Shown here in pieces: positions 7,549-24,134 of a DNA stretch of 34,230 nt. The first letter of the stretch is position 1; each line of letters begins with the position of its first letter. The notes beneath the pieces are model-generated. The model was not told where the DNA came from. It worked only from the letters and a program-made list of their open reading frames with translations, and did not search any database. The stretch is from Candidatus Ozemibacteraceae bacterium. GTDB lineage: Bacteria; Muiribacteriota; Ozemobacteria; Ozemobacterales; Ozemobacteraceae. The translations under genes were made by a program, and so were the position numbers. The stretch covers positions 1-34,230 of the forward strand of contig JAGOCE010000005.1 in the NCBI GenBank assembly GCA_017998915.1, read 5' to 3'.

Positions 7549-8658
7549 ATGAAGGTACCGCTGCTGGATCTCAAGCCTCAATACGCCCAGATCAAGGACA
7601 AGGTCGTTCCCGAAGTTCTTGCCGTGATGGAAAGCCAGGGATTCATTCTCGGTCCGCGCGTGGAAAAGATGGAGCAGGAGCTTGCCGCCTATACGGGCGC
7701 GAAATACGCCGTCGGCGTGTCATCCGGAACCGATGCGCTGTTGCTGTCGCTCATGGCGCTGAACATCGGCGCAGGCGATGAAGTCATCACGACACCGTAC
7801 AGCTTTTTCGCGACCGCCGGGGCAATCGCCCGCGTCGGAGCCCGAGCGGTTTTCGTCGACATCGAGCCCGACACCTACAATATCGACGCCACGAAGATCG
7901 CCGCCGCGATCACGCCGCGCACGAAAGCGATTCTGCCGGTTCACCTGTTCGGCCAGTGCGCCGATATGGATGCGATCATGAAGGTGGCGCGCCAGCACAA
8001 GCTGCCGGTCATCGAAGACGCCTGCCAGTCGATCGGTTCCCGTTTCAACGACAAACAGGCCGGCACGATCGGCGATTTCGGCTGTTTCAGCTTCTTCCCG
8101 AGCAAGAATCTCGGCTGTTTCGGCGACGGCGGCCTCGTCACGACCAACGACGAGCAGCTGTACCAGCGCGTCAAGAAGCTGCGCGTGCATGGCGGCGAAC
8201 GCCAGTATCATCACCTGGAAGTCGGCATCAACGGTCGCCTCGACGCTCTTCAGGCGGCCGTCATCTCGGTCAAACTGCCGCACCTGGCAGGCTGGACAGA
8301 AGGCCGCAGAAAAAATGCCTCCCGCTACAACGAGCTTCTCGCTGGCAACCAAAGCGTCCGCACCCCCGTCGCCAAGCAGGGCCGGTATCACATCTACAAC
8401 CAGTATGTCATCAGCATCGAGCGGCGCGACGAACTGAAACAGTTCCTCACCGAGAAAGAGATCGGCTGCGCCGTGTATTACCCGCTCAGCCTTCATGAAC
8501 AGGAATGCTTCAAATCTCTCGGCTACAAACACGGCGACTTCCCCAACTCGGAAGCAGCCGCTCTGCGCACGCTCGCGCTTCCCGTGTATTCGGAGCTCCC
8601 GGACGGCGCGGTCGAGTTTGTCGCCTCGGCGATAAACGAGTTCACGAAGCGCTCTTGA
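7549..8658 (+). CDS. DegT/DnrJ/EryC1/StrS family sugar aminotransferase
   Basis: 369 residues with GGAGGAGAA upstream of the ATG. A PLP-dependent fold type I enzyme of the group that aminates keto-sugar nucleotides for O-antigen, capsule or glycan building blocks. Motifs: PLLDLKPQY at the N-terminus, GFILGPRVEKME, SSGTDALLLSL at 58-68 (cofactor phosphate), Asp 157 in IEDACQSIGS, and the Schiff-base Lys 186 in FFPSKNLG followed by FGDGG; the C-terminal segment contains YYPLSLHEQ and LALPVYSEL. The pattern resembles WbpE-type UDP-sugar 3-aminotransferases, but the substrate cannot be fixed from sequence. It is a single gene, followed by a terminator and then a Wzz/BY-kinase-like gene, which fits a polysaccharide role. 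Confidence 0.92.
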   Translation: MKVPLLDLKPQYAQIKDKVVPEVLAVMESQGFILGPRVEKMEQELAAYTGAKYAVGVSSGTDALLLSLMALNIGAGDEVITTPYSFFATAGAIARVGARAVFVDIEPDTYNIDATKIAAAITPRTKAILPVHLFGQCADMDAIMKVARQHKLPVIEDACQSIGSRFNDKQAGTIGDFGCFSFFPSKNLGCFGDGGLVTTNDEQLYQRVKKLRVHGGERQYHHLEVGINGRLDALQAAVISVKLPHLAGWTEGRRKNASRYNELLAGNQSVRTPVAKQGRYHIYNQYVISIERRDELKQFLTEKEIGCAVYYPLSLHEQECFKSLGYKHGDFPNSEAAALRTLALPVYSELPDGAVEFVASAINEFTKRS

Positions 8659-8875: not shown

Positions 8876-10834
8876 ATGGCGCAGGAGAACCTGTTCGAAG
8901 GCATCCTCCGCAGCCTCGACCGACATCGGGGAGCGGCCGTCATGATCGTGGCCGCGACGCTGCTCGTCACGGCGCTCGTCAGCCGTGTTTTCCCGACCGT
9001 TTACGAGAGCAAGTCCCTTCTCAGGGTCATGACAAGCGAACTGCGCCCCGGCGACAGCCCGGCAGCGGCGATGAACGGCATCCTCTCCCAGAAAGACGTG
9101 GTCGGCGAAGTTCTTCAGACCTGCGGACTCGACCTGGGAAAATCGGAACCCCGCTACACCCCCTTCACGCTGGAGGATGCCGGCCAGGGCCTCGTAAAGC
9201 TCACCGTTCGTGACCCGAATCCGGCGGAGCTCTCCGCGCTCGGCGATGCCGTCATCAAGATGCTCTCGGAGCGGTTTCTCGGATATTCAAACGAGACGAA
9301 CCTGTTCGAGATCGAGATGCTCGAGAAGAAGAAGAACGTGCTCAAGGAAAAGCTCGAGGAAGCGCGCCGCGGCTCACCCGACACCCTGCCATCCACGCTC
9401 TTCGAGAACGAGGCGCTCGCTCTCGACGAGGAAATCCAGCGCGTCGGCACGAAGCTTCAGGAAAACAAGAAGCGGCTGCAGACTCTTCCACGCATTCGTG
9501 TCGTGCCGTCTTCTCGAACGGACAACGCCCTTGCGGAAGTGCGCGACACCCTCTCGGAAGCGCGCACCGAGCTTGCCCGGCTGCTCGAAACCTATCGCGA
9601 GAAGCATCCGAAGGTGATTGCGGCGAACGAGTTCATCGCCGATCTCCAGGCCCGCCAGCGCAAGCTCGCCTCGCAGCGCGACAGAAAAGAACCGAATCCC
9701 GAGTATGATGCCCTCCAACAGGAAATCGATGCGAACACGGCCAAGCTGGAAGAGCTGAAGAAACGCTGGTTCGAAGCCAATCGAACACCGCCCGAACCGA
9801 CGATTCTGAATCCCCTCGGCGGCCGCGCCCCCGTCCTCGCCTCGTCGGCCGGCACCGCCCGGATCAGATCGCTCGAAGCTCTCTACAACGACGTCACGAT
9901 GCGACTGGAAGAACTGCAGATCAAGCAGTCGACCGCGGTCGGGCGGATCCAGGTCCTCCGCAAGGATATCGACGCGCCGAAGCCGATCGGCCTTTCCCTC
10001 CTCCAGCGCGAGCTCGCGGCGATGCTTGGCGGGGCACTTCTCGCCGTCTTCCTCCTCTACACGCCGATTCCGATGAAGGCGGAGTTTGTGGGTGCCCCCA
10101 CCCCAGTCTTCGTCTCGGCTCCAGGCTACGAGTCCAGGCCGTCCACCCACCTGCTCCAGATGTCGCCCCTCTCTTCGACGCGCCTCGCCCTGCCGGTGCC
10201 CGACTCGGTTCATCACGCCAGCTACGACGAACGGTTGATCGTTCTCAACGAGCCTGATTCAAGGCGGCTCGAGCCATACCGGACCCTCGTGTCGAATCTC
10301 CAGATCGCTCTCGCCGACAACGCCACCCGCATCATCCAGGTCTGTTCTTCGCGCTCGGGAATGGGGAGAAGCACGCTGACGGCGAATCTCGCCATCCTGT
10401 TCGCCCAGGCCAACTACTCGGTCGTCCTGATCGATGCGAACTTCCGGCGGCCCGTCCTGCACCGCATCTTCGACACCGACAACCACACCGGGCTGAGTAC
10501 GGCTCTGTGCGGCCAGTCAACGGCGAACATCGTCAAGCCGACGATGCTCAAGAATCTCGGCCTGATCACTGCCGGCCCGATTCCGCCACACCCGGTCGAG
10601 CTCCTGGGCTCGGTTTCGATGATCGAACTGCTTGACACGCTCAAACGCAGGGTCGAGCTGGTCCTCATCGACACCCCGGCGCTTCTCGAATACCCGGATT
10701 CCGGCATTCTCGCCGAGCAAGCCGGCGGTGTCGTGTTCCTGCACCGCGAGGGCGAGCCCGAAGCCGATATCAAGGCCAGCCAGGATTTCCTGAAAAACAT
10801 CCGGGCAACCGTTCTCGGCTACGTCACGACCTGA
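8876..10834 (+). CDS. Wzz-type chain-length determinant fused to a BY-kinase-like ATPase with altered Walker A
   Basis: 652 residues, AGGAGG 7-8 nt before the ATG. Wzz/GumC topology: membrane helix at about 20-38, a long periplasmic coiled-coil region (about 140-300, many E/K heptads, and the PNAELS-like block at 114-120), second helix at about 380-397. The cytoplasmic C-terminal half (465-652) has EPYRTLVSNLQIAL, the P-loop position SSRSGMGRST at 491-500, Walker A' VVLIDANFRRP at 516-526 and Walker B LVLIDTPALL at 595-604. The P-loop lysine of GxGKST is Arg 498, and the tail has no tyrosine cluster (only Tyr 649). Known relatives couple ATP-driven tyrosine phosphorylation to polysaccharide export; this copy may be a catalytically dead regulator. 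It is monocistronic with its own terminator. Confidence 0.88.
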   Translation: MAQENLFEGILRSLDRHRGAAVMIVAATLLVTALVSRVFPTVYESKSLLRVMTSELRPGDSPAAAMNGILSQKDVVGEVLQTCGLDLGKSEPRYTPFTLEDAGQGLVKLTVRDPNPAELSALGDAVIKMLSERFLGYSNETNLFEIEMLEKKKNVLKEKLEEARRGSPDTLPSTLFENEALALDEEIQRVGTKLQENKKRLQTLPRIRVVPSSRTDNALAEVRDTLSEARTELARLLETYREKHPKVIAANEFIADLQARQRKLASQRDRKEPNPEYDALQQEIDANTAKLEELKKRWFEANRTPPEPTILNPLGGRAPVLASSAGTARIRSLEALYNDVTMRLEELQIKQSTAVGRIQVLRKDIDAPKPIGLSLLQRELAAMLGGALLAVFLLYTPIPMKAEFVGAPTPVFVSAPGYESRPSTHLLQMSPLSSTRLALPVPDSVHHASYDERLIVLNEPDSRRLEPYRTLVSNLQIALADNATRIIQVCSSRSGMGRSTLTANLAILFAQANYSVVLIDANFRRPVLHRIFDTDNHTGLSTALCGQSTANIVKPTMLKNLGLITAGPIPPHPVELLGSVSMIELLDTLKRRVELVLIDTPALLEYPDSGILAEQAGGVVFLHREGEPEADIKASQDFLKNIRATVLGYVTT

Positions 10835-11661: not shown

Positions 11662-12885
11662 ATGGCGCAACGCATCAAGGTGTTCATTGCCGACGACATG
11701 ATCGAGCTGCGCTCGAACGTGCGCCGCATGTTGAGCACCCTTGACAATGTACGCGTCGTCGGCGAAGCCGGCGACGGCGAGGAAGCTCTCAAGCTGATCC
11801 GCGAGCTGTCGCCGCACGTCGTCCTGATGGACATCAACATGCCGAAGCTGGATGGCCTGAAGGCCACGGAAACGCTCACCAAGGAGCGGCCGAACATCCA
11901 GGTCATCATCATGTCGATCCAGAGCGAACAGGAGTATTTCCGCCGGGCGATGAAAGCCGGGGCGAAAGACTTCCTCACGAAGCCCTTTTCCGGAAGCGAG
12001 CTTTCCGAAGCGATCCTGAATGTCTTCAATCAATGGGTGAAGGACACGCCCGATGCGCTCGTCGAGGAGCAGAAGGCGCAGGTCCTGACGTTTTTCTCGA
12101 CGAAGGGCGGGGTCGGCAAGACGACGCTGGCGACGAACCTTGCGGTGAGCCTCGCCAGGCTTGGCAAGCACACGCTGCTGATCGACACGTCACTTCAGTT
12201 CGGCGACGTCGCGATCACGCTGAACCAGAAATGCAACAGGAACATCTACGGCATCATCCAGGACAACAAGGACGAAGTCGCTCCCGAAGACATCGAGAAA
12301 AACACGGTTCGACACCCCAGCGGTCTCGAGCTGCTTCTGGCGCCGATCGAACCGGCATATGCCGAGTCGATCAAGGCCCAGCACATCAAGCAGATTCTCG
12401 ACCATGTATCGGAGAACTATCAGTTCATCATCTTCGACACAGCACCGCATATCGGCGATCTCGAGCTGGCCATTCTCGATCGCACCGATCTCGTGCTGCT
12501 CGTAGCGACGCTCGAAATCAGCTCACTGAAGAATACGAAGCTGTGTCTGAAGACCTTTTCCGACATCAAGTTCGACACGAACAAGATCAAGCTGGTCCTC
12601 AACAAGGATTTTCCGCACGCGGGCATCGGCTGCAAGGATATCGAAGCGGGGCTTGCCATCCCGCTTTTCTCGACCGTTCCGATGGATATGGCGACGGCGC
12701 AGCAGGCACTTAACCAAGGTGAACCTTTTGTGGTAAAATCCCCTGACACTCCGTTGGCCAAAACCATAAAAGACATGGCCATGACGATCGCCGGCGTGGA
12801 GAGAGAGGCTCCCGCGGAAGAGCAGGAGAGTGTCATCGACAAGTTCAAAAACATCCTACTTCGGGTCTTGAATCAAGGGAGGTAA
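11662..12885 (+). CDS. cpaE: CpaE/TadZ-type Flp pilus ATPase with an intact receiver domain
   Basis: 407 residues, GGGAGAAG just before the ATG. Residues 1-125 are a response-regulator receiver: Asp 11 and Asp 12, the phospho-acceptor Asp 57 in VVLMDINMP, Ser 85 and Lys 107 in FLTKPF are all in place. Residues 138-380 are a MinD/ParA-like ATPase: deviant Walker A STKGGVGKTT at 146-155, Walker A' LLIDTSLQFGDV at 172-183, and FIIFDTAPHIGDLELAIL as Walker B. CpaE proteins place the Tad machine at a cell site. Many known CpaE/TadZ receivers have lost the Asp; this one looks able to be phosphorylated. It is 6 nt before cpaF and shares its operon. Confidence 0.93.
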   Translation: MAQRIKVFIADDMIELRSNVRRMLSTLDNVRVVGEAGDGEEALKLIRELSPHVVLMDINMPKLDGLKATETLTKERPNIQVIIMSIQSEQEYFRRAMKAGAKDFLTKPFSGSELSEAILNVFNQWVKDTPDALVEEQKAQVLTFFSTKGGVGKTTLATNLAVSLARLGKHTLLIDTSLQFGDVAITLNQKCNRNIYGIIQDNKDEVAPEDIEKNTVRHPSGLELLLAPIEPAYAESIKAQHIKQILDHVSENYQFIIFDTAPHIGDLELAILDRTDLVLLVATLEISSLKNTKLCLKTFSDIKFDTNKIKLVLNKDFPHAGIGCKDIEAGLAIPLFSTVPMDMATAQQALNQGEPFVVKSPDTPLAKTIKDMAMTIAGVEREAPAEEQESVIDKFKNILLRVLNQGR

Positions 12886-12891
12886 CGTCTG

Positions 12892-14262
12892 ATGGGTGGT
12901 TTACTTTCTCGTCTGAATGAGGAAAAGAAGTCCGTAGAAAAATCCGGCATCCTCGAATCTGCGGTAACCCGCGAAATCACCGGTTTTGAGAGGCTCAAGG
13001 AAAAGGTTCACACGCGGCTGATCGACGACATGCCCCAGGCGATCATGACCGAGACGAACCAGGAAAAGAAGCGCGGCATGCTCCGCGACCGCATCACCCA
13101 GGTCACGACCGAGGAAGGGAGCAAGCTGAACATCTCTCTCTCGCCCCGTGAAATGGAGTCGATGACGCAGGTTCTGCTGGACGACATGATCGGGTTCGGC
13201 CCGATCCAGAAGCTGCTCGACGATGACGACATTTCCGAAGTCATGGTCAATGGCCCCTACCAGATTTACTTCGAAAAGAAAGGGAAGCTGACCCTTTCCG
13301 AGATCAAGTTCAAGGACAACGATCACGTCATGCGCATCATCGAGCGCATCGTCGCACCGATCGGCCGCCGCATCGACGAATCGGTTCCGTACGTCGACGC
13401 GCGTCTTCCCGACGGCTCCCGCGTGAACGCGATCATTCCGCCTCTCGCGCTGAACGGGCCGACGATCACGATCCGAAAGTTCAAGAAGGAAGCCCTCGGA
13501 ATCGCCGATCTGGTGCGTTTCGGCACGCTGACGGACGACATGGCGAAGTTTCTCGAGGCCTGCATCAAGGTCCGCCTCAACTGCGTCGTTTCAGGCGGCA
13601 CGGGCTCCGGAAAGACGACCACGCTGAACATCCTGAGCTCCTTCATTCCGGAAGACGAGCGCATCATCACCTGCGAAGACGCGGCCGAACTCCAGCTGCG
13701 CCAGCCGCATGTCGTGCGCCTCGAAACACGCCCGGCGAACATCGAAGGCAAGGGCGCCGTTCCGATGCGCGAACTCATCAAGAACACGCTCCGCATGCGC
13801 CCCGAGCGCGTCATCGTCGGCGAGTGCCGCGGCGGCGAAGCGCTCGACATGCTCCAGGCCATGAACACCGGTCACGACGGCTCGCTGACCACGGGCCACG
13901 CCAATACGCCCCGCGACATGCTCGCCCGCCTCGAAACGATGGTCCTGATGGCCGGCATGGATCTCCCGGTCCGCGCCATCCGCGAGCAGATCGCCTCGGC
14001 CGTCCACCTGATCATCCAGCAGTCCCGCCTCAAGGACGGTTCACGCAAGATCACGTATCTGACCGAGATTCAGGGCATGGAAGGCGACAAGATCGTCATG
14101 CAGGACATCTTCCGGTTCGAACAGACCGGTGTCGATGAAAAAGGGAAGATCATCGGACGCCTGAAGGCAACCGGCATCAGACCTAAATTCGCATCCAAAT
14201 TCGAAGAAGCTGGAATACATCTGCCGCCGAACGTCTTCACCGACTCCTCCAAAGGATGGTGA
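12892..14262 (+). CDS. cpaF: CpaF/TadA Flp pilus assembly motor ATPase
   Basis: 456 residues, start ATG with GGGAGGT about 8 nt upstream. A VirB11/GspE-like secretion ATPase that powers pilin extrusion, hexameric on the cytoplasmic side of the inner membrane. Seen: N-terminal helical region to about 95, the CpaF signature DISEVMVNGP at 113-122, Walker A GGTGSGKTT at 235-243, Asp box ITCEDAAELQL at 259-269, Walker B RVIVGECRGGEA at 306-317 and His box GHDGSLTTGHAN at 327-338. It lies between cpaE (6 nt) and tadB (4 nt). No defects are seen. Confidence 0.97.
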   Translation: MGGLLSRLNEEKKSVEKSGILESAVTREITGFERLKEKVHTRLIDDMPQAIMTETNQEKKRGMLRDRITQVTTEEGSKLNISLSPREMESMTQVLLDDMIGFGPIQKLLDDDDISEVMVNGPYQIYFEKKGKLTLSEIKFKDNDHVMRIIERIVAPIGRRIDESVPYVDARLPDGSRVNAIIPPLALNGPTITIRKFKKEALGIADLVRFGTLTDDMAKFLEACIKVRLNCVVSGGTGSGKTTTLNILSSFIPEDERIITCEDAAELQLRQPHVVRLETRPANIEGKGAVPMRELIKNTLRMRPERVIVGECRGGEALDMLQAMNTGHDGSLTTGHANTPRDMLARLETMVLMAGMDLPVRAIREQIASAVHLIIQQSRLKDGSRKITYLTEIQGMEGDKIVMQDIFRFEQTGVDEKGKIIGRLKATGIRPKFASKFEEAGIHLPPNVFTDSSKGW

Positions 14263-14266
14263 TGGC

Positions 14267-15313
14267 GTGCAACTGATTTTCATCGTTGTAGCAGGCATTA
14301 CGGCGCTGTTGTTCACGCTCCTGCTGTTTTCCCTCTTCGGATCGGCGCCCGGGGAAGACGTTCGCGCGCGCATGGAGCAGTATCTCGTCGAATCCGAGAT
14401 GATCGCCAAGCAGTACACCCCTCCCGACGAGGATGATGAAAAGCGTGACAAGGGCTCGGAAGAAGGGGAAGATGACTGGGTCAAAGAGACGCGTGGCGAT
14501 GAACAGGGCATCAAAAAGCTCCTCGGCAATGTCGGTTTCGTTCTTACCCCCAAAGGAATGGCGGCACGAATCGCCGACAAGCTTGCAAAAGCCGGCGTTC
14601 CGCTGAAAGCCAACGAATTCGTCTCGGTTGTCTTTCTTGCCACGATCATACCGGCAATTTTCGGGACGCTCATCACCCAGAATCCCTTGATGGGTCTCGG
14701 GCTGGGCGTTGTCGGATTTTTCGTGCCGAATCTCTGGGTCACGATCATGAAATCCCAGCGGTCCGCCGCCTTCGGGAACCAGATCCAGGATGCCCTGATC
14801 ATGATCGCGAACGGTCTGAAAGCCGGCTATTCGCTTCTGCAGGCGATGGAAATGGTCGCCCGCGAGGCTCCGCCGCCCATGTCCACGGAACTGAGGCGGG
14901 TGCTGAAGGAAAACAGCCTCGGCCTGAACCTTGAAGACGCCCTTCGCGGATTGAACATGCGCGTCGAGAACGAAGACTGGGATCTCGTCACGACCGTCGT
15001 GCTCATTCAGCGTCAGGTCGGCGGCAACCTCGCCGAGATTCTCGACAAGATCGGCGCGACGATCAGACAGCGTCAAAAGATCAAAGGCGACATCCAGACG
15101 AAGACGGCTCAGGCGAGGGTCTCCGGTTTCATCGTCGGCGCTCTCCCTGTCGGCCTGGGACTCATGATCTACATCGTCAATCCTTCCTTCATGATGAAAC
15201 TGTTCACGTTCAAACAAGGCTGGTACAGGGGCTGGTTCCTGCTGATCTTCGGTCTCATCTGGGAAGTCATCGGGATGATGATCATCATGAAGATCGTCGA
15301 CATCGAAGTGTAA
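14267..15313 (+). CDS. tadB: TadB-type inner-membrane platform protein (GspF family), GTG start
   Basis: 348 residues. The GTG at 14267 is 4 nt after the cpaF stop, with AAAGGATGG upstream; the nearby ATG at 14262 is out of frame. One helix at about 3-25, an acidic/charged linker at about 50-80 (EDDEKRDKGSEEGEDDW) not common in TadB, helices near 118-160, then the T2SSF domain (about 175-310) with ALIMIANGLKAGYSLLQAMEMV and QVGGNLAEILDKIGATIRQR, and final helices at about 285-345. TadB pairs with TadC as the membrane platform that CpaF turns. The ribosome-binding site lies inside cpaF, suggesting coupling. Confidence 0.93.
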   Translation: MQLIFIVVAGITALLFTLLLFSLFGSAPGEDVRARMEQYLVESEMIAKQYTPPDEDDEKRDKGSEEGEDDWVKETRGDEQGIKKLLGNVGFVLTPKGMAARIADKLAKAGVPLKANEFVSVVFLATIIPAIFGTLITQNPLMGLGLGVVGFFVPNLWVTIMKSQRSAAFGNQIQDALIMIANGLKAGYSLLQAMEMVAREAPPPMSTELRRVLKENSLGLNLEDALRGLNMRVENEDWDLVTTVVLIQRQVGGNLAEILDKIGATIRQRQKIKGDIQTKTAQARVSGFIVGALPVGLGLMIYIVNPSFMMKLFTFKQGWYRGWFLLIFGLIWEVIGMMIIMKIVDIEV

Positions 15314-15323
15314 GGAGAGACGC

Positions 15324-16271
15324 ATGAACACTCTGTTTATGATTACCGGTGCCGCCGTCGTCTTCCTCGTCATTCTTTTGCTGTTCCCTTCCGGTGCGCA
15401 ATCTGACATTCAGAACCGCCTCGCCCAGCTCGACGGGGGCGTTACCACAAGTGAAGCCGCGGCAATCAAGGATGAGGAGCTGAACAAGCCGTTCGTGGAC
15501 CGCGTCATCAGGCCATTCCTGGCAGGCCTCGCCGGGAAGCGCGATCCGAAGGAAATCCGGCAGATCCAGCGCAGCTCGCTCCGGAAGATGCTTGCCCAGG
15601 CCGGGTATCCGGGCGGTCTCACGGTCGGCGAGTTCATGGTCATCCAGAACCTGTTCCGGGTCATTCTGCCCTCGGTCATGATCGCCTTCGGCTTCGTCGT
15701 TCAGATGCAGCCAAGCCAGATCGGGCTGTTCGCGTTCGTTGGAATCGGCCTCGGGACACTGCTTCCGCGCATGTATCTCCAGAACAAGATCGCGACCCGG
15801 CTGCACGGAATCACCCGCCAGCTCCCGGACGTCCTCGACCTTCTGACCGTCGCTGTCGAAGCCGGCCTCGGCTTCGACGCCGCCTGCGACAAGGTCGTCG
15901 AGAAGATGCGCGGTCCGATTCCGGACGAGTTCAGTCTGACCCTCAGACAGATCCGAATGGGCCAGTCACGTCGCGACGCGTTCAAGGATATGGCCGAACG
16001 TGTCAACCACCAGGATCTCTCGGCTTTCGTCTCTGCCATCATTCAGGCTGACCAGCTCGGCGTCTCGATCGGCCAGGTCCTGCGCATTCAATCCGACCAG
16101 CTTCGCGAGAAGCGGCGGCAGCGCGCCGAGGAAGAGGCCGCGAAAGCGCCGGTCAAAATGATGATTCCCCTGGTCTTCTTCATTTTCCCGAATGTCGGCA
16201 TCGTCATCATGGGGCCTGCCGCCTACCAGATCATCGAGGAAATGGGGAAGAGCTCCATGCCCACTGAATGA
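15324..16271 (+). CDS. tadC: TadC-type inner-membrane platform protein (GspF family)
   Basis: 315 residues, start ATG with AAGGAGAG upstream, 10 nt after tadB. N-terminal helix at about 5-22, two helices near 110-150, T2SSF domain with LPDVLDLLTVAVEAGLGFDAA at about 167-187 and LGVSIGQVLRIQSDQLREKR, and a last hydrophobic segment MMIPLVFFIFPNVGIVIMGP. The partner of TadB in the Tad platform. The stop codon is followed in the same frame by the DUF192 gene without another stop. Confidence 0.93.
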   Translation: MNTLFMITGAAVVFLVILLLFPSGAQSDIQNRLAQLDGGVTTSEAAAIKDEELNKPFVDRVIRPFLAGLAGKRDPKEIRQIQRSSLRKMLAQAGYPGGLTVGEFMVIQNLFRVILPSVMIAFGFVVQMQPSQIGLFAFVGIGLGTLLPRMYLQNKIATRLHGITRQLPDVLDLLTVAVEAGLGFDAACDKVVEKMRGPIPDEFSLTLRQIRMGQSRRDAFKDMAERVNHQDLSAFVSAIIQADQLGVSIGQVLRIQSDQLREKRRQRAEEEAAKAPVKMMIPLVFFIFPNVGIVIMGPAAYQIIEEMGKSSMPTE

Positions 16272-16664: not shown

Positions 16665-16759
16665 GTAACGTCCGAAAAGTCCGTTTTCAGATTCGTCATC
16701 AAAAGTGAGAAGATTCCATGAACAAGCCATCTACCCGTCCCGAAAGGAGACCTGAACGC

Positions 16760-17878
16760 ATGTTTTCCGTCCCGCGTCTCTCAACCCGCTTTTATCTGGG
16801 CCTCGCCCTCGTTGTTTGTCTGGCCAGCCTCATCCTGACCGGCTGCGACTCCAACCCGTCCGGCTCCTCCACCGCTTCGACCAGCACGACTGGCACTGCT
16901 TCTCCGACGGTCAGTGTCGTCGGAACCACGACGCTGTATGGCCGGTTGCTCGATCTCTCCACCGGCAACCCGATCGTGAGCACTGATGCGAACATCGCCG
17001 TCCGATTATATCGAGATGCCGTCCTGGTCGCGGAACGCGATGCCCAGAACAGCAATTTCTATTCGTTTACGGGTATCTCGGGCGGCATTTATTATATCGA
17101 AGCCTATGATAAAAGTGGCATCTACGAAAAGAATTATGCCGTCATCAACCTGGCTGCGAATTCCAATGTCGAGCAGAACCTTTCCTTGCGTCCCAAACCG
17201 GGCGCTGCTCAGGTGGCTGCATCCTATACCGTCATTGGAAAACTCGTCAGCGCTGCTGACAGCACGCCTGTGATGTTTGCCAACGTTTCTCTCGGCGTAG
17301 GCGCCCTCACCACCAGTACCCTGGAAGACGGTTCATTCATTCTGTATGGGGTGTCCGAAGGCCAATACACGGTCACCTTCTCCAAAACCGGATTCACAGA
17401 CCGGAATGTGGTCATCGTCGCAAGCACCACCAATCTTTTCGTCGGAGGAGTTGCCGCGAACAATGGCACGGTCGCCGACGGCGCCGGCCTGAACGTAGCT
17501 GGTAAAAACATAGGAACGATCGCAATCAGTCCCGCTTTCACGTCTACCGGCGCATTGGCGGGTACGATCCGCAATCCGACGACGGACGCTCTCGTCACCA
17601 ACACAAAGGTCGCCCTGTGGTATAAACCGGATAGCAGCGATACCCGCCAGCCGGCGATCATTCACCGACCCACGACGAACGCCGTCGGAAACGTCTCAAT
17701 AGAAAACCTGCCAGCTGGCTGGTATGCGATCACATCTCTGGATACCGTTACCACCCCTGTGTATGACAACAACGGCGCGTTGGTGGCATATAGATTCGTC
17801 GGAGCAGCGATTTATACCGGGGCGTTCCTCCAGGTCACGCCCCCCTATACCACTACCCTCCCCTCTGACGGTCTGTAA
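16760..17878 (+). CDS. Lipoprotein with carboxypeptidase-regulatory-like repeats
   Basis: 372 residues from the ATG at 16760, preferred over the ATG at 16718 (same frame) because AAAGGAGA stands 9 nt before it and the product then starts with a compact lipoprotein signal (RLSTRFYLGLALVVCLASLILTGC, lipid Cys at 29). After a Ser/Thr-rich linker come three beta-sandwich units opening with TTLYGRLLDLSTGNPI, TVIGKLVSAADSTPV and GALAGTIRNPTTDALV, each ending in a G-x-Y pattern such as GVSEGQYTVTFSKTGF. This is the carboxypeptidase D regulatory-like/Cna-B type seen in surface proteins. It sits at the end of the tad motor operon, so it may be an outer-membrane accessory, but this is only position. 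It stops 7 nt before the intron relic. Confidence 0.8.
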   Translation: MFSVPRLSTRFYLGLALVVCLASLILTGCDSNPSGSSTASTSTTGTASPTVSVVGTTTLYGRLLDLSTGNPIVSTDANIAVRLYRDAVLVAERDAQNSNFYSFTGISGGIYYIEAYDKSGIYEKNYAVINLAANSNVEQNLSLRPKPGAAQVAASYTVIGKLVSAADSTPVMFANVSLGVGALTTSTLEDGSFILYGVSEGQYTVTFSKTGFTDRNVVIVASTTNLFVGGVAANNGTVADGAGLNVAGKNIGTIAISPAFTSTGALAGTIRNPTTDALVTNTKVALWYKPDSSDTRQPAIIHRPTTNAVGNVSIENLPAGWYAITSLDTVTTPVYDNNGALVAYRFVGAAIYTGAFLQVTPPYTTTLPSDGL

Positions 17879-17884
17879 TTTCCT

Positions 17885-18506
17885 ATCGAGAGGAGGCGGG
17901 GATACCCCCGCCTCCTCTCACGCTCCCGGCATGTACGGTTCCGTATCCGGGAGTTCATGACTGGCATTGGGATCTCCTGATCAAATCGAGCAGTAACACG
18001 AGACCAAGATCATCAAAGAACCGTTTTTGGAAAAGCCTCGCTCATGTGGCTTGCACCGGCATTCCACCACGGGCTCGCTCGTTGGAAGCCGACTTCCAAG
18101 CCCGGGTTTCATCCAAACCGCGTTTCATCAGTGCTTTCATTCGCGCCCATGGCTTTGTTGAGTTGTCGTCAGATGATGACTCGCGTTTTTCGGCGCAGCC
18201 AGTTGTCGAGTTCCTCAAACGTTTGCCGCACCTCGGCAAAGCGGAAGTAATCTCCCAGCCTCGAATAATCGGGGTTAGTTTCTTTTTGATCCAGAAACCG
18301 AGATTGCATCCATGGCCTTTCCTGACCAGTTCCCGCACTTTCTTCCGGAACCTCTCCACGTTTTGTGGCGCCACTTTCAGACGAGGGAGTTTGTGGAGCG
18401 CCATGATATACCCGAGGAACTTGCGGTCCCAAGGGTGGGCAACGGCACTCTTTTCCCGCCAGCCCCCCGATCATCATTCCGGCTTGCAGGTAGTGACGAA
18501 TGAGCC
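17885..18506 (-). mobile_element. Group II intron relic, copy 1 (3' end with reverse transcriptase/maturase remnants)
   Basis: Read on the minus strand: 18501-18458 encodes IRHYLQAGMMIGGL, a segment before the catalytic part of group II intron reverse transcriptases; it is joined directly to REKSAVAHPWDRKFLGY, which follows that part, so the core with YADD is deleted. The X/maturase region then runs on through several frameshifts (LKVAPQNVERFRKKVREL, IIRGWE, NYFRFAEVRQTFEELDNWLRR, KPWARMKALMKRGLDETRAW) to a stop at 17955. A domain V-like hairpin (17923-17953) and a 14-bp GC hairpin like domain VI (17888-17919) close the element at about 17885. Confidence 0.8.
17955..18460 (-). pseudogene. ltrA: Group II intron reverse transcriptase/maturase, C-terminal remnant, frameshifted
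   Basis: About 160 residues of the C-terminal (maturase and HNH-less tail) half can be rebuilt across at least three frameshifts: near 18250 between GWE and NYFRF, near 18170 after TRVII, and near 18080-18060 in the ...WKSA.NER..WWNAG stretch; an extra A near 18020 breaks the last section. The ending rebuilds to the family tail HMNEAFPK..DDLGLVSLLD. The reverse transcriptase catalytic core is missing, so no activity is expected. Confidence 0.78.
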
Positions 18507-18694: not shown

Positions 18695-18775
18695 TTGATA
18701 TTCCAATTCTCCCGTGACATTATTATATCATCCTATGGATTTTCGCAATGATGCCTTTGGCATTATATTTGCGAA
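18695..18775 (+). promoter_or_regulatory. Candidate promoter and structured leader before the first tadE-like gene
   Basis: TTGATA at 18695-18700, a 17-nt spacer and CATTAT at 18718-18723 make a fair sigma70-like promoter, the first after the mobile-element debris. About 15 nt on, the leader folds into a nested hairpin: outer arms TTCGCAA (18742-18748) and TTGCGAA (18769-18775), inner ATGCC/GGCAT (18751-18755 and 18759-18763). The gene start is at 18828. Both calls are from the sequence only. Confidence 0.35.
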
Positions 18776-18827
18776 TAATTACACCGGAGCGTCCTTTGTA
18801 CATATCTCCACACAGGAGAAGATCCCC

Positions 18828-19295
18828 ATGAACAGCCGATTCCGAACCGGACAGGCTACGCTCGAACTGGCGCTTGTATTGCCGCTTTTCCTTTTCCTTG
18901 TGTTTGCTATTGTCGATTTTGGTCGCATTCTCCATATATGGTCGTGCATCAATCTCCAATGCGTGGAAGCGGCACGTGAAGGCTCGAAGCGACTGAATCA
19001 GCTGGTTGCACGAAATGTTTTCACCAGCACGACCCATCCTTCTCTTGCCCAGGTAGAGGCGGCCTTCGCTGCTCATCGATCTCCAGCCATCAATCCGGCC
19101 AACTACTGCAATCCTACCAGTCCCACCCTTCCCGAGCCTGAATATTCAGGAGTTGGAGACGCATCGCGAGAAATAACAGTCCGTGTCGGATGCCGGATTG
19201 AGATGGTCACTCCTTTCATTGGGAATATTTTTCAAGCCATAACCGGCAAACCCGAAGTGATCGTTTGGGCGTCTGCCACCGAGGCAAAGGAATAA
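18828..19295 (+). CDS. TadE-like pseudopilin 1
   Basis: 155 residues. The frame is open from 18714, but the ATG at 18828 has AGGAGA 8-9 nt upstream and gives the family start MNSRFRTGQATLELALVLPLFLFLVFAIVDFGR: a short basic tail, G before Q-A-T-L-E and a hydrophobic helix with a Pro, as in TadE/TadF pseudopilins. The exported part has three Cys and ends in a beta-rich section (EITVRVGCRIEMVTPF). TadE/TadF are cut by TadV and are minor components of the Tad machine. Codon use and GC (about 50%) are lower than in the motor genes. Confidence 0.85.
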   Translation: MNSRFRTGQATLELALVLPLFLFLVFAIVDFGRILHIWSCINLQCVEAAREGSKRLNQLVARNVFTSTTHPSLAQVEAAFAAHRSPAINPANYCNPTSPTLPEPEYSGVGDASREITVRVGCRIEMVTPFIGNIFQAITGKPEVIVWASATEAKE

Positions 19296-19417: not shown

Positions 19418-19852
19418 ATGAGATATCAGAAGCGAGGTCAGTCCTTTGTTGAATTCGCACTCATATGCCCTCTGGTTATTCTTCTGTTCACTGGGGGGAT
19501 CGTTGATTTTGGCTTCGCGTTTTACAACATCATAGCCCTTCAGCAAATTGCAAATGCCACGGCAAAGTGGGCTGCCGAAAGTAACGGAACGACGGGAAGG
19601 TCTCCCTCCGAGATCGAAACCTATGCAACCTCAAAAAAACCAGCATGGTGGAACACCTCATTCAAGGTCCAGTCGTCCCCTGATGTCACCATGTCAACCG
19701 GAGGGAAGGCTGTGAGAGTGACCCTTTCTTACGAGTCGCCATTGTATACGCCTTTCTATTCTACGGTCACGATGGGTATTTCCGGCAAACCAGTCATTCC
19801 GTTGAGTGTCGCTGCTTTATATCAGAAGCCAGTGGCTGTATTCACGCGCTAA
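19418..19852 (+). CDS. TadE-like pseudopilin 2
   Basis: 144 residues, ATG with GGAGG about 9 nt upstream. N-terminus MRYQKRGQSFVEFALICPLVILLFTGGIVDFGFAFYN is the TadE pattern: G-Q-S-F-V-E (Glu at the fifth position after the expected cleavage Gly), Pro in the helix and an aromatic-rich exit. The rest is a small beta-rich exported domain with no Cys. It lies 122 nt after the first tadE-like gene; that gap and the 107 nt to the next gene hold no other frame I can support. Confidence 0.87.
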   Translation: MRYQKRGQSFVEFALICPLVILLFTGGIVDFGFAFYNIIALQQIANATAKWAAESNGTTGRSPSEIETYATSKKPAWWNTSFKVQSSPDVTMSTGGKAVRVTLSYESPLYTPFYSTVTMGISGKPVIPLSVAALYQKPVAVFTR

Positions 19853-19959: not shown

Positions 19960-22626
19960 ATGTTTTATTCAAAAAGAGGTTCGATTCTGATAATGACTGC
20001 GGTGGCCGCCGTTTTTCTCATCGGATTAACGGCGGTGGTGACAGATGTGGGGTGGATGTATTATCAGAAGAACCGGCTGGAAACAGCTGTCAATGCTGGC
20101 TGGAAAGCCGGTTACGACAAGATGATCGAATTAACTTCCGGTACAAATGCTCCCCTTTCCCAAGTCGGCCAAAATACTGTAAAAGCCAAGATTCTTGATG
20201 TCATTCGCCAGAATGGATACTCTGATGACCAGTTGGCAAACGTTCAAATAACCATCGATCCATCTAACACGCTGGAAGTGACAGCTTCAGAACCCGTCGG
20301 TCTCTTCTTCTCCAGGATTTACGGATATACAACCGCGCGAGTTGCCGCTTCACGTGAAAACGACAGAACGATGAGCGCTTCCATCGTTCCGCTGGCCATT
20401 CCCCATGGCGTGGTGAAAGACCTCACCAAAACGACCTATTCGGTCGATTTTTTCGGTTCCGGAGATGCTTTTGCCAGCGGATCCGAATACATTCTCAAAC
20501 TCGGAAGCGGGGGTGGAAGCAAGCCACCGACGACGCCGGATGATGTCAAAATGATTCTCGTTCCGATGGACACCGGAGCTCAAACAACCCTTGGATACGA
20601 AAGGGCATACGGTGTCGCATTCTGGTGTTTGAAGATCGAGGAGTCAGACCCTGGGTATACCCCTGTGTATTGGCTGCTGGGTTATCGTGGCGGATCGTTC
20701 TTTTTGCCATATGATGACGCTATTATTTCAAAACTCACTGATTATGGCGTTAACTACACCATCATTACCGGTCGCGAAAATGTGCAGGCCGTCTTCGATC
20801 AGGTGAATCCCAACACCCTGGAGTTGTACGATCGCCCCAGAATCGCAGTCTATTCGTCCCAGGACAACCCAGACCCTGTTGAAACAACCCTCCGTGAGGC
20901 AAGGATTCCATACGGTACGTATAGTAAACCTCCCTCGGTCAACGCAAACGGGTGGACACGCAATGCCACCTACGCCCCGTCCAACGCCACCCGGATCTAC
21001 GATGGGGATATTCTAGCCGGGGCCTTGGATGGATATCACTGGGTTCACCTTCACCATGAAGATTTCACAGGATTCAACGGCGGGTGTTATTACTATGGCT
21101 ATACGTGTAAAAATTTCTATGACAAACGCTTGTTAGGTTCCACAAGCAGCTCTTCAAAGAGAACGACGTGCAGAAATCGCATGTGCAGCTACTGTAAGAG
21201 CTATTTCACAGCATCCTCCGGATCCTGGGGAGGCACATACAATCCCGAACCAAGCGATACCGTGACCAACTGCCAAAACGCGAGAAGACGGTGTACCGAG
21301 AAGGCTTGTGCGGATGGGACCTTGTGGCGAACAATTTCCTCAATTAAGATTTGTAACCAAACCGACCCCGACAGACCGCAATGTCTCGAATATGCGAATC
21401 TGCTGTCGTTCGCAACCGGATTCACAAGCGATCCGGGATCCGAGCCCAAGCCTCAGTATGAAGTATATACGAACGGCGGGAGACCTGTTCCTGACAACGC
21501 GGACGGATGGTTCAACAAAGGCACCAACGTTCAAAAGATGAAATGGGAAGTCACGAAAAAGGTTCGTGAGCATGTTCAACTCGGGGGCTTCCTCTTCGCG
21601 CAATGCTTTGCTCCTGAAACGCTTGATCTGGCTTTGTGGGAATCAGGTATTCACGCCGGGGAATCTGCGACAACCGCATATGATGAATGTCTCGCCTTCA
21701 CAGGGATGCATTATAAGACGTTCCCTTGGAGATCCGGTGCTACATGGTTCTCAGATATCAATTCCCGAGATACGTCATCGAATCAGCCGTTCACCCTGTC
21801 GGCGCCACTCGATCCGAGATGCCAGAATCATTCTGGAAATCCCGACACGGGAAGCGGTCACACCGCAAGTTTCCTCAGATCCCAGATCAAAAGCTCCGTT
21901 ACAATATTGGGAACTCGGACATCGAACTCGAACTATGTAAAGTATATTTCAGGAAATTACGCAAGAGGAACGTTTACCTTCCTTGGAGGCCATTATCACC
22001 ACAATGTCCAAGCTAAACGTCTCGTGCTGAACAATGTTCTACTAGGCTCGTTGGTAACCAAAGAACTTGCAGAAGGAGAGGATACTCCCGTCACGGGAAA
22101 ACAGAAAAGCAACTACGGTGTCATCGATCCGGACAATACCACCGGGGGCGGAGCCAACGACTACAGAGATCGCTTCGAATACGGCTTCAATCAGCCCCTC
22201 CAGATGAACGACCGCATTATCCCCGAACCTGGGAACCAGTCAGGACCAACGGATCAGGCAGTAAGTTTTCGCGTGAATGGAGACGCCACATATCCTCCCA
22301 ATCGTCGGGTTCTCATCCCCATCACAGACATTCCTCCGGAAGTTCCGATTAATAACACTCATAATGCAACCGCAGCTGCAATTTACGATCTCCAAGGCCA
22401 GGATCACCCCAACGGCGCATATCTTCCCTCGCAATATGCGTTCGGTTCTTCGGTTCGCATCATCGGTTTTGCCGTGTTCGAAATTCTCGATCCATCGGAA
22501 TATACGCGCGCAGGAAGCACTATTTCGGCGGGTGACACGGGAGATCTTGGCAACTATCAGACAGGCCAAGTTCGTGGCCGGTTCGTCGAATATTACATCA
22601 AGCCAGGTGACGTCCCCCTGAATTGA
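19960..22626 (+). CDS. Very large TadG-like protein with a Cys-rich insert
   Basis: 888 residues, start ATG 5 nt after GGGGGAAAA. The first 50 residues, MFYSKRGSILIMTAVAAVFLIGLTAVVTDVGWMYY then NRLETAVNAGWKAGYDKM, match the putative Flp pilus-assembly TadG N-terminal region: a membrane helix then an amphipathic segment. The rest is outside the cytoplasm. About 292-365 and 535-620 alternate strand and helix (RPRIAVYSSQ, HWVHLHHEDF, GGFLFAQCFA with Cys near 548) in a way that recalls glutamine-amidotransferase-like/DUF4159-type folds; a ten-Cys insert (about 374-475, e.g. CRNRMCSYC) splits them. The C-terminal 200 residues are beta-rich. Typical TadG is 400-600 residues. The enzyme-like fold is an inference; the TadG N-terminus is clear. 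Confidence 0.75.
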   Translation: MFYSKRGSILIMTAVAAVFLIGLTAVVTDVGWMYYQKNRLETAVNAGWKAGYDKMIELTSGTNAPLSQVGQNTVKAKILDVIRQNGYSDDQLANVQITIDPSNTLEVTASEPVGLFFSRIYGYTTARVAASRENDRTMSASIVPLAIPHGVVKDLTKTTYSVDFFGSGDAFASGSEYILKLGSGGGSKPPTTPDDVKMILVPMDTGAQTTLGYERAYGVAFWCLKIEESDPGYTPVYWLLGYRGGSFFLPYDDAIISKLTDYGVNYTIITGRENVQAVFDQVNPNTLELYDRPRIAVYSSQDNPDPVETTLREARIPYGTYSKPPSVNANGWTRNATYAPSNATRIYDGDILAGALDGYHWVHLHHEDFTGFNGGCYYYGYTCKNFYDKRLLGSTSSSSKRTTCRNRMCSYCKSYFTASSGSWGGTYNPEPSDTVTNCQNARRRCTEKACADGTLWRTISSIKICNQTDPDRPQCLEYANLLSFATGFTSDPGSEPKPQYEVYTNGGRPVPDNADGWFNKGTNVQKMKWEVTKKVREHVQLGGFLFAQCFAPETLDLALWESGIHAGESATTAYDECLAFTGMHYKTFPWRSGATWFSDINSRDTSSNQPFTLSAPLDPRCQNHSGNPDTGSGHTASFLRSQIKSSVTILGTRTSNSNYVKYISGNYARGTFTFLGGHYHHNVQAKRLVLNNVLLGSLVTKELAEGEDTPVTGKQKSNYGVIDPDNTTGGGANDYRDRFEYGFNQPLQMNDRIIPEPGNQSGPTDQAVSFRVNGDATYPPNRRVLIPITDIPPEVPINNTHNATAAAIYDLQGQDHPNGAYLPSQYAFGSSVRIIGFAVFEILDPSEYTRAGSTISAGDTGDLGNYQTGQVRGRFVEYYIKPGDVPLN

Positions 22627-22663: not shown

Positions 22664-22714
22664 TGGCTGCCCAAAGACACCCTCGTCGAAATCGAAATGG
22701 TTGTTCTTGTCTGA
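22664..22714 (+). pseudogene. 3' fragment of a ridA gene, inverted relative to the intact copy
   Basis: These 51 bases read WLPKDTLVEIEMVVLV and stop, almost the same as the C-terminus of the intact RidA at 23451 (LPKDSLVEIEMVALV). The similarity goes on past the stop for about 40 nt, to 22755, where the intron relic begins. No upstream part of ridA is left. The intact gene is on the other strand about 0.75 kb away, so this looks like the leftover of an inverted duplication or of a second locus. Confidence 0.8.
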
Positions 22715-22755
22715 ACGGCATTGAAGCGACAATGGGTGCCGCTGCAAAGAGGCAT

Positions 22756-23018
22756 ATCGAGCAGGAGGCGGGGTTACCCCCGCCTCCTTTTGTAACACCA
22801 GACGTCCGGTTCCGTATCCGACAGTTCACGACTGACATTGGAATCTCCTGATCAAATCAAGCAGTGACACGAGACCAAGATCATCAAAGAACCCTTTCGG
22901 GAAAGCCTCGTTCATGTGACTTGTACCAGCGTTCCACCACGGGCCTTGCCCGTTGTATGCCGATTTCCAAACCCGAGTTTCATCCAAACCTCGTTTCATC
23001 AGTGCTTTCACTCGCGCT
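22756..23018 (-). mobile_element. Group II intron relic, copy 2 (maturase C-terminus, domain V/VI-like end)
   Basis: It has the same layout and orientation as copy 1 at 17885-18145 and is roughly 80-85% identical to it by eye. Minus-strand frame 23011-22826 reads MKALMKRGLDETRVWKSAYN ... WWNAGTSHMNEAFPKGFFDDLGLVSLLDLI, the intact family ending that copy 1 has lost to frameshifts. A decayed domain V-like hairpin (about 22794-22824) and an 11-bp GC hairpin (22763-22788) follow; both copies end at the same CTCGAT. On the other side it is cut at about 23018 by the transposase fragment. Confidence 0.8.
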
Positions 23019-23066
23019 CATTTTACAGGACTCAATTATTGAGTATTGGAAAATGATAAACAAGAT

Positions 23067-23302: not shown

Positions 23303-23450
23303 GGTCCACCTCCCGTATAGGGGAGGATACGGGAACCGGAGAAAAAGTACAAAAGCTGGTTTTCATTTTGCAGGATTCAATAGGAAGTGCGCCCTGCGGG
23401 CGGCTTTCGGTATGTCCCTTTGCTGGCACCCTTTGCCGCCTCAATGCCGT

Positions 23451-23831
23451 TCAGACAAGAGCGACCATTTCGATTTCGACGAGGGAGTCTTTGGGGAGCT
23501 TGGAGACCTGGATGCAGGAGCGGGCGGGGGGTTCCTTGGGGAAGCGTTTGGCGTAGATCTCGTTGACGATCGCGAAATGGGCGAGGTCGACGAGGAAGAT
23601 CGTCGTTTTCACGACCTTGGAGAAATCGGCGCCGGCGGCTTTCAACACGGCCTCGAGATTCTTCATGACCTGTTCGGTCTGGCCGGTGATGTCGGATGCC
23701 TCGATATTCCCCGAGGTCGGGTCGATCGGGATCTGGCCCGAGGTGAACACGAAACCGCCCGCCTTGATGGCCTGCGAATACGGCCCGATCGCCGCCGGAG
23801 CCTTGTCCGTGGAAACAACCTGTCGTGACAT
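23451..23831 (-). CDS. ridA: RidA/YjgF/UK114 family reactive-intermediate deaminase
   Basis: 126 residues, the standard length, with AAGGAG 8 nt before the ATG. RidA hydrolyses reactive enamine/imine products of PLP enzymes (e.g. from serine or threonine) to keto acids in the cytoplasm. Seen: APAAIGPYSQAI, GFVFTSGQIPIDP, TEQVMKNLEAVLKAAG, DFSKVVKTTIFLVD, and PARSCIQVSKLPKDSLVEIEMVA, with the substrate-binding Arg in PARS and the Glu of VEIE. It is divergent from the gene at 24135, and its 3' side meets the mobile-element debris; a CGCCC/GGGCG hairpin about 50 nt downstream may end its transcript. Confidence 0.96.
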   Translation of the reverse strand: MSRQVVSTDKAPAAIGPYSQAIKAGGFVFTSGQIPIDPTSGNIEASDITGQTEQVMKNLEAVLKAAGADFSKVVKTTIFLVDLAHFAIVNEIYAKRFPKEPPARSCIQVSKLPKDSLVEIEMVALV

Positions 23832-23864
23832 TGATGAACTCCTTATCAGAAATGAAAAGACTTC

Positions 23865-23966
23865 ATCACAGAGCCCACAAAGAGCACAGAGATTTCACAG
23901 AGAATTTATATGTATAACGATATATTTTCTCTGTGTTTCCTCCGTGTCCTTTGTGGTCTCTGTGAT
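23865..23966. repeat. Long imperfect palindrome (40-nt arms)
   Basis: Arms 23865-23904 and 23927-23966 are complementary at about 30 of 40 positions, built of CACAGAG and CACAAAG words; the loop of 22 nt is AT-only but for a few bases. It lies between the divergent ridA and the gene at 24135. Similar CACAGAG-rich hairpins occur between genes in many bacteria, so it may be a dispersed REP/MITE-like element; it might also carry promoter or terminator function. The rest of 23832-24134 shows no gene. Confidence 0.75.
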
Positions 23967-24134
23967 TCAGCTTTTGTGCAATTCATTCATAATGCTGAAA
24001 GAATGATACGTCAAGAGACGGGCGACTTGTTCCGATAGAGGGGCTTAACCCGCTTCCTTCGGGGGATGGGACGTCGCGGTTTGCTCACGAAGCCGCGACG
24101 GATGTAGAATATGTGAATGGAGGGCCACGGACCC

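Follow-up and report, generated by a model that had tools for sequence, protein, structure and literature searches.

What might the tip of a Tad pilus do to the surface it meets? The question is raised by a protein from a Candidatus Ozemibacteraceae bacterium (GenBank assembly GCA_017998915.1), encoded in the stretch of DNA analysed here (contig JAGOCE010000005.1, positions 1 to 34,230; hereafter the window, 34,230 nucleotides). The original prediction, made from the letters alone, held that this 888-residue protein joins a TadG membrane start to an exported, amidotransferase-like region split by a segment with ten cysteines, and that it could be a pilus tip with catalytic or binding action.

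A large TadG-type pilin in a tad operon

The protein is read as one open reading frame with an ATG start. Residues 7-45 match the Tad domain PF13400 (E=1.8e-5; 25.4 bits as against a cut-off of 22.3); the same residues match TadE below the cut-off, and the protein has no further Pfam match. This match and the location of the gene inside a tad operon bear out the predicted TadG start. The protein (P0001) found no match in NCBIfam, and PDB sequence and profile searches with P0001, A2 and A4 were empty; the single PDB match of A3, to IRS1 (E 0.56), was taken as chance. Orthologues in the same family align over residues 4-888 at 38-62% identity, and conservation over this full length implies that the protein is neither a chimera nor a chance reading. 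The named orthologues are from Candidatus Riflebacteria, among them Ca. Ozemobacter sibiricus (62% identity) and Ca. Rifleibacterium amylolyticum, and the viral contigs searched hold no relative. The gene lies in the following setting:

11662-12885, +: TadZ/CpaE-like ATPase (Response_reg and AAA_31)
12892-14262, +: TadA/CpaF-like ATPase (T2SSE, E=1.5e-64)
14267-15313, +: TadB-like platform protein (T2SSF)
15324-16271, +: TadC-like platform protein (T2SSF)
16718-17878, +: exported CarboxypepD_reg-type protein (PF13620), with homologues upstream of TadG in relatives
18714-19295, +: TadE-type minor pilin (PF07811, residues 46-90, E=6.1e-12), with a homologue upstream of TadG in relatives
19418-19852, +: second TadE-type minor pilin (PF07811, E=7.9e-10), with a homologue upstream of TadG in relatives
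19960-22626, +: TadG-type large minor pilin, 888 aa, with full-length orthologues

The true start of the first TadE-type pilin is probably the internal ATG at 18828, and a small conserved open reading frame lies between the TadC gene and that for the CarboxypepD_reg-type protein. Relatives (L079, L084, L085, L099 and L102) have the same operon order, TadZ-A-B-C followed further on by TadE-TadE-TadG, and other loci retain at least TadE-TadE-TadG or have the TadE genes downstream (L090, L094). Its Tad helix and its place in a tad operon beside TadE-type pilins mark the protein as a TadG-type minor pilin. By analogy with characterised TadEFG homologues (PMC12075869, PMC12607857), it would be located at the pilus tip, with its head presumably exposed.

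Several further features were seen around these genes. Gut and rumen Riflebacteria (loci L093, L099 and L102) have two tip sets in one tad operon, a TadE with a small TadG (~360 aa) and then TadE-TadE with a large TadG. The window's own genome has a part of another TadG, of which the start of the contig leaves only the C-terminal end, with a TadE-like gene adjoining on the opposite strand (L010:2-310 and 532-1050). Adjoining the tad operon in the window is a Wzz/ParA-like protein (8876-10834; N-terminal Wzz, C-terminal ParA/CbiA) that resembles exopolysaccharide chain-length regulators, and a DegT aminotransferase is encoded at 7549-8658. The TadE-TadE-TadG cassette is bracketed by a non-coding direct repeat of ~267 bp (17884-18150 and 22755-23021, 85% identical), a third, partial copy of which stands at the start of contig C335 (L147), away from tip genes; the pair could aid swapping of the tip cassette, or two dispersed repeats may have come to lie there by chance. 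A 75-nt inverted repeat (91% complementary) links 22666-22740, immediately past the TadG stop, with 23425-23499: the 3' end of ridA (23451-23831, -) is copied there in part and in inverted orientation. A long imperfect palindrome with 56-nt arms and an 8-nt loop follows at 23856-23975; its matches to Rfam microRNA families are sub-threshold and were set aside as spurious.

An amidotransferase-like domain and its exported relatives

An AlphaFold2 model built on a 20-sequence alignment (mean pLDDT 80; means over 10-residue blocks above 90 across much of 200-370, 390-440, 520-580 and 610-690) was compared with the PDB by Foldseek, whose matches are mostly of the class-I amidotransferase-like kind, and residues ~197-708 have a fold like that of class-I glutamine amidotransferases. 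This upholds the alpha/beta fold of the original prediction. The motifs it had quoted are all present (RPRIAVYSSQ at 292-301, HWVHLHHEDF at 360-369 and GGFLFAQCFAPETLD at 542-556), and the cysteine it had put near 548 is Cys549. The region it had marked, 20830-21830 (residues 291-624), is real, but those bounds cut through the domain, which extends over ~197-708 (20548-22083). The parts of the protein, some of them defined with the help of a stand-alone exported family described below, are as follows:

19978-20094, +: Tad N-terminal pilin-like helix, residues 7-45 (PF13400; helix 6-59 in the AlphaFold2 model)
20380-20520, +: TadG beta module, first part, residues 141-187 (joined to residues 713-885 in 360-aa TadGs)
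20548-21075, +: amidotransferase-like domain, first half, residues 197-372, ending in HLHHEDFTGF (Foldseek, hhalign)
21046-21057, +: HLHH motif (His363, His365, His366), putative part of an active site (invariant in the stand-alone family; His366 and Cys549 lost together)
21076-21525, +: Cys-rich insert module, residues 373-522 (alignments and model; ten Cys, eight near-invariant)
21526-22083, +: amidotransferase-like domain, second half, residues 523-708, with nucleophile-elbow-like GGFLFAQC and GGH (Foldseek, hhalign)
21604-21606, +: Cys549, in elbow position between strand 544-548 and helix 551-565 (AlphaFold2 secondary structure; invariant Cys in the stand-alone family)
21991-21993, +: His678, after strand 670-675, in a position like that of the class-I amidotransferase His (invariant in the stand-alone family; lost together with Cys549)
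22096-22614, +: TadG beta module, second part, residues 713-885 (common to small TadGs without the inserted domain)

The best Foldseek matches are STM3548 (2gk3, E 4e-4) and lin1909 (3fij, E 7e-4), with several members of the fold at E <0.005; others include PabA (8rp0, TMt 0.50), a ThuA-like protein (1t0b), CarA and homoserine succinyltransferase, and TM-scores to the best PDB matches are modest (TMt 0.40-0.50). GH42 beta-galactosidases match over ~180 residues, a stretch that we take to be their trimerisation domain, which is amidotransferase-like. In secondary structure and in the alignment, Cys549 and His678 fit the elbow Cys and the His of the class-I triad. The HPE acid and GGP oxyanion motifs of that class are absent from TadG, where the sequence reads GGHYHH and HLHHEDFTG, and the Pfam GATase profile has no match in P0001 and one in P0003 (E=0.023) that is below the cut-off.

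The window's genome encodes two stand-alone homologues of the domain, P0002 (426 aa, with a signal-peptide-like start) and P0003. With hhalign the profile of the TadG domain aligns to that of the stand-alone family (350 columns, probability 100, E 1.8e-65), and on this comparison the homology of the two is unambiguous. At E<=1e-20 the stand-alone family turns up in 35 of the 40 genomes of Riflebacteria and, beyond them, in 59 of 247 genomes sampled from other phyla; the plasmids searched have no stand-alone homologue. Neither the stand-alone proteins nor the Cys insert has a Pfam or NCBIfam match above the cut-off. Proteins like P0002 are often annotated as 'asparagine synthetase B'. In several genomes the family is encoded in an operon with DUF4159, a ~1,100-aa protein, a TPR protein, MoxR, DUF58 and BatA, and in the window's genome all of these up to DUF58 stand together on contig C61. 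The kinship of the domain with DUF4159 that the original prediction had entertained did not hold up: there is no PF13709 match in Pfam, and an hhalign probability of 6.5 rules DUF4159 out as a sequence relative, though its gene is a neighbour of the stand-alone homologue in this operon.

These results also bear on the plainest account of the protein, an ordinary von Willebrand (vWA) or beta-rich TadG that looks like an enzyme by chance. It has a precedent in Caulobacter CpaL, whose Rossmann domain is likewise interrupted by an insert (PMC12607857). However, no VWA was found in the window protein by Pfam or among the 50 Foldseek matches listed, and this, with the kinship to the stand-alone family, makes such an account hardly credible.

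Nested modules and the putative Cys549/His366/His678 pocket

The small TadGs of the same genomes (360-416 aa) match residues 4-190 and ~700-885 only and, judging by these alignments, are the host protein of a nested architecture, in which the small TadG contains the amidotransferase-like domain and the latter in turn the Cys module. That the Cys-rich segment splits the domain was rightly predicted, and the insert occupies ~373-522; its ten cysteines are at 376, 383, 404, 409, 412, 438, 445, 450, 465 and 475. Opposite it, the stand-alone proteins have a short loop (~30-40 aa) in the hhalign alignment, and a 711-aa TadG (L071/L096) has the amidotransferase-like domain without the Cys module. The slot after HHEDFTG carries a Cys module of ~145-220 aa with 8-12 Cys in Ozemobacteraceae, larger Cys inserts of 316-543 aa in some TadGs and, in family f5, ~1,140 aa that include a TIG domain; TIG/Ig-like domains there take the place of the Cys module. 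The f5 TadGs of 1808-1943 aa (L058:4535-10231, L059:4660-10491, L067:3411-8837) all fill the slot with more than 1,000 aa, the TIG domain having been found in L058, the one scanned. Families f4 and f6 have an additional copy of the TadG beta module, and it enters at another point, before the HHEDF strand. Genome G026 has a tandem array of four TadGs of ~930-948 aa (L061:2537-14604), in each of which the domain is interrupted elsewhere by a second beta module copy.

The Cys module is restricted to TadG of Ozemobacteraceae: its profile matches in 22 of 24 genomes, in every case within a TadG ORF of family f1. Modelled alone, it reaches a pLDDT of 83.8 and a pTM of 0.80, and Foldseek against PDB and BFVD gave no match at E<=10. 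Eight of the ten cysteines, a CxxC among them, recur in 16-19 of the 19 orthologues that bear the insert, while Cys404 and Cys450 are lineage-specific. Profiles of VKOR and DsbB matched none of 40 genomes of the phylum (control genomes were positive), and the only DSBA-family match of the window's genome starts MAADALTFYFDFTCPYSYLGW, without a signal peptide; disulfides are thus not assured, and metal binding by the Cys module is a live alternative. A wider proposal, that the head is a metal-binding or redox module of the tip, with metal bound at the pocket (HxHH, Cys549, His678) and perhaps at the Cys module too, draws on the same uncertainty of oxidative folding, on the conserved cysteines with their CxxC and on the joint variation of the three clustered His with His678 and Cys549. 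Nevertheless, we deem it unlikely, given that no known metal-site signature is seen, that secreted cysteines are able to oxidise without dedicated enzymes, and that Cys counts are mostly even (8, 10, 12), as disulfides predict, though nine occurs. The four proteins with nine led us to drop parity as a proof of disulfides.

The insert enters the loop just past the HLHH strand and ahead of the helix leading to Cys549, a position from which, on the alignments, the Cys module probably adjoins the putative pocket. The stand-alone family keeps HxHHxDFTGQ, GGFxFAMCSA, QxH and GGHxP invariant. In TadG, Cys549, His366 and His678 are either all kept, as in the window's protein, or all missing wherever all three can be read (L027 is a fragment in which position 678 is not scorable). 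In the order Cys549/His366/His678, the pocket is replaced by S/S/D in L076, G/P/S in L044, D/Q/G in L071, G/N/D in L054 and G/D/T or S in L062, L068 and L046. When these columns are left out of the tree, every one of the three traits shows three changes, and the places are the same for all. With three events a sign test is too limited for significance (p 0.25), and the case for co-loss rests on the three residues changing at the same three places. Such joint loss argues that the residues work as one site, and on this sequence evidence Cys549, His366 and His678 are a single putative functional site. The sisters L053 (pocket intact) and L054 (pocket lost) indicate that the loss can be recent, and since the three lineages that lost the pocket kept the pilin parts, it is dispensable for the pilus.

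The pattern can be read in two further ways. In the first, Cys549 and His678 would make the tip an active cysteine hydrolase or transferase, whose targets would be glycans or peptides of the cell that the pilus contacts and whose substrate-recognition lid would be the Cys module. The strand-helix elbow at Cys549, the invariance of the Cys and His in the exported stand-alone family together with their strictly joint loss in TadG, and the presence of the active amidotransferases PabA and CarA among the Foldseek matches all speak for this. Yet conservation does not extend to the triad acid (TadG has H-Y-H, the stand-alone family H-D-P), the stand-alone family was found to have no described substrate, and three lineages have lost the site, so that we consider an active enzyme possible but doubtful. 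In the second, the domain would be a degenerate enzyme scaffold, a spacer that merely holds variable modules, Cys-rich or TIG, off the pilus. Unrelated modules do fill the slot in different families, and the insert is kept in most of the proteins that lost the pocket. However, most rows, that of the window's protein among them, keep the whole pocket, and neutral decay would not strip Cys549, His366 and His678 on the same branches while sparing them on all others; a mere spacer therefore seems improbable.

A probable borrowed head at the pilus tip and its counterparts

Taking these lines together, we favor, with a probability of roughly 0.6, a pilus-tip complex of TadG and the two TadE pilins, whose captured amidotransferase-like head, with the Cys module inside it, most likely binds a ligand. 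The Tad helix would pack with the two TadE-type pilins at the end of the filament, leaving the head distal, as in the KilLMN and CpaL models. The head would be a class-I-amidotransferase-like domain captured from the exported protein of a MoxR/DUF58/Bat-type operon and placed in the beta module of a small TadG, the Cys-rich module having been inserted later beside the Cys-His pocket. The pocket (Cys549, His363/365/366, His678) and the Cys module would then form a contact face that binds a ligand on the contacted surface. Ligand recognition is the most likely role of this putative face, and catalysis by it is conceivable, if distinctly less probable. A more far-reaching proposal, to which we lend still a little less credence, makes the tip itself enzymatic. 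Its Cys-His or metal site, taken over from an exported protein of envelope maintenance, would modify the surface of other cells or particles on contact, and the clade-specific Cys module, of new fold, would be the recognition lid.

TadG heads are thought to determine the targets that a Tad pilus binds to, senses or kills, and only a few show a fold that can be recognised. The head described here has a traceable source in an exported protein found across phyla, a site that is either retained or lost whole, and a slot filled by different modules in different families. It may be that the tip binds, or acts chemically on, whatever the pilus touches, and the question of whether a pilus tip does chemistry becomes testable by single point mutants. 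At the same time, the uncharacterised exported protein of the MoxR/DUF58 operon gains a second context. In the literature searched, no paper combined an amidotransferase-like domain with the tip of a Tad pilus, and no paper on pili in Ozemobacter was found.

Among known systems, tip complexes of the Tad pilus have been published for TadEFG/KilLMN of Myxococcus xanthus (PMC12075869). As there, a large TadG-like minor pilin is encoded beside smaller TadE/F-like pilins, the head is variable and a genome may have several tip gene sets; in contrast, the KilN4 head has no PDB homologue (PMC12075869), whereas the present one is amidotransferase-like with a Cys module, and its placement at the tip is presumed from homologues. 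CpaL is a minor pilin of similar plan, in which a pilin-like start leads into a Rossmann-type domain that is interrupted by an inserted module (PMC12607857), but its domain is a vWA with a MIDAS, as opposed to the amidotransferase-like fold with a Cys-His pocket seen here. The stand-alone P0002 is homologous over the whole domain, with identical pocket residues, yet it is a ~425-aa signal-peptide protein that lacks the Tad parts and has a short loop where TadG has the Cys module. Class-I amidotransferase-like folds (2gk3, 3fij, 1t0b, 8rp0, the GH42 trimerisation domain) share the fold, the elbow Cys and the late-strand His, while the TadG domain differs in its lack of the GGP and HPE motifs, its export and its splitting by an insert. 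The window's protein is a real, conserved variant of a TadG tip protein with an unusual borrowed head.
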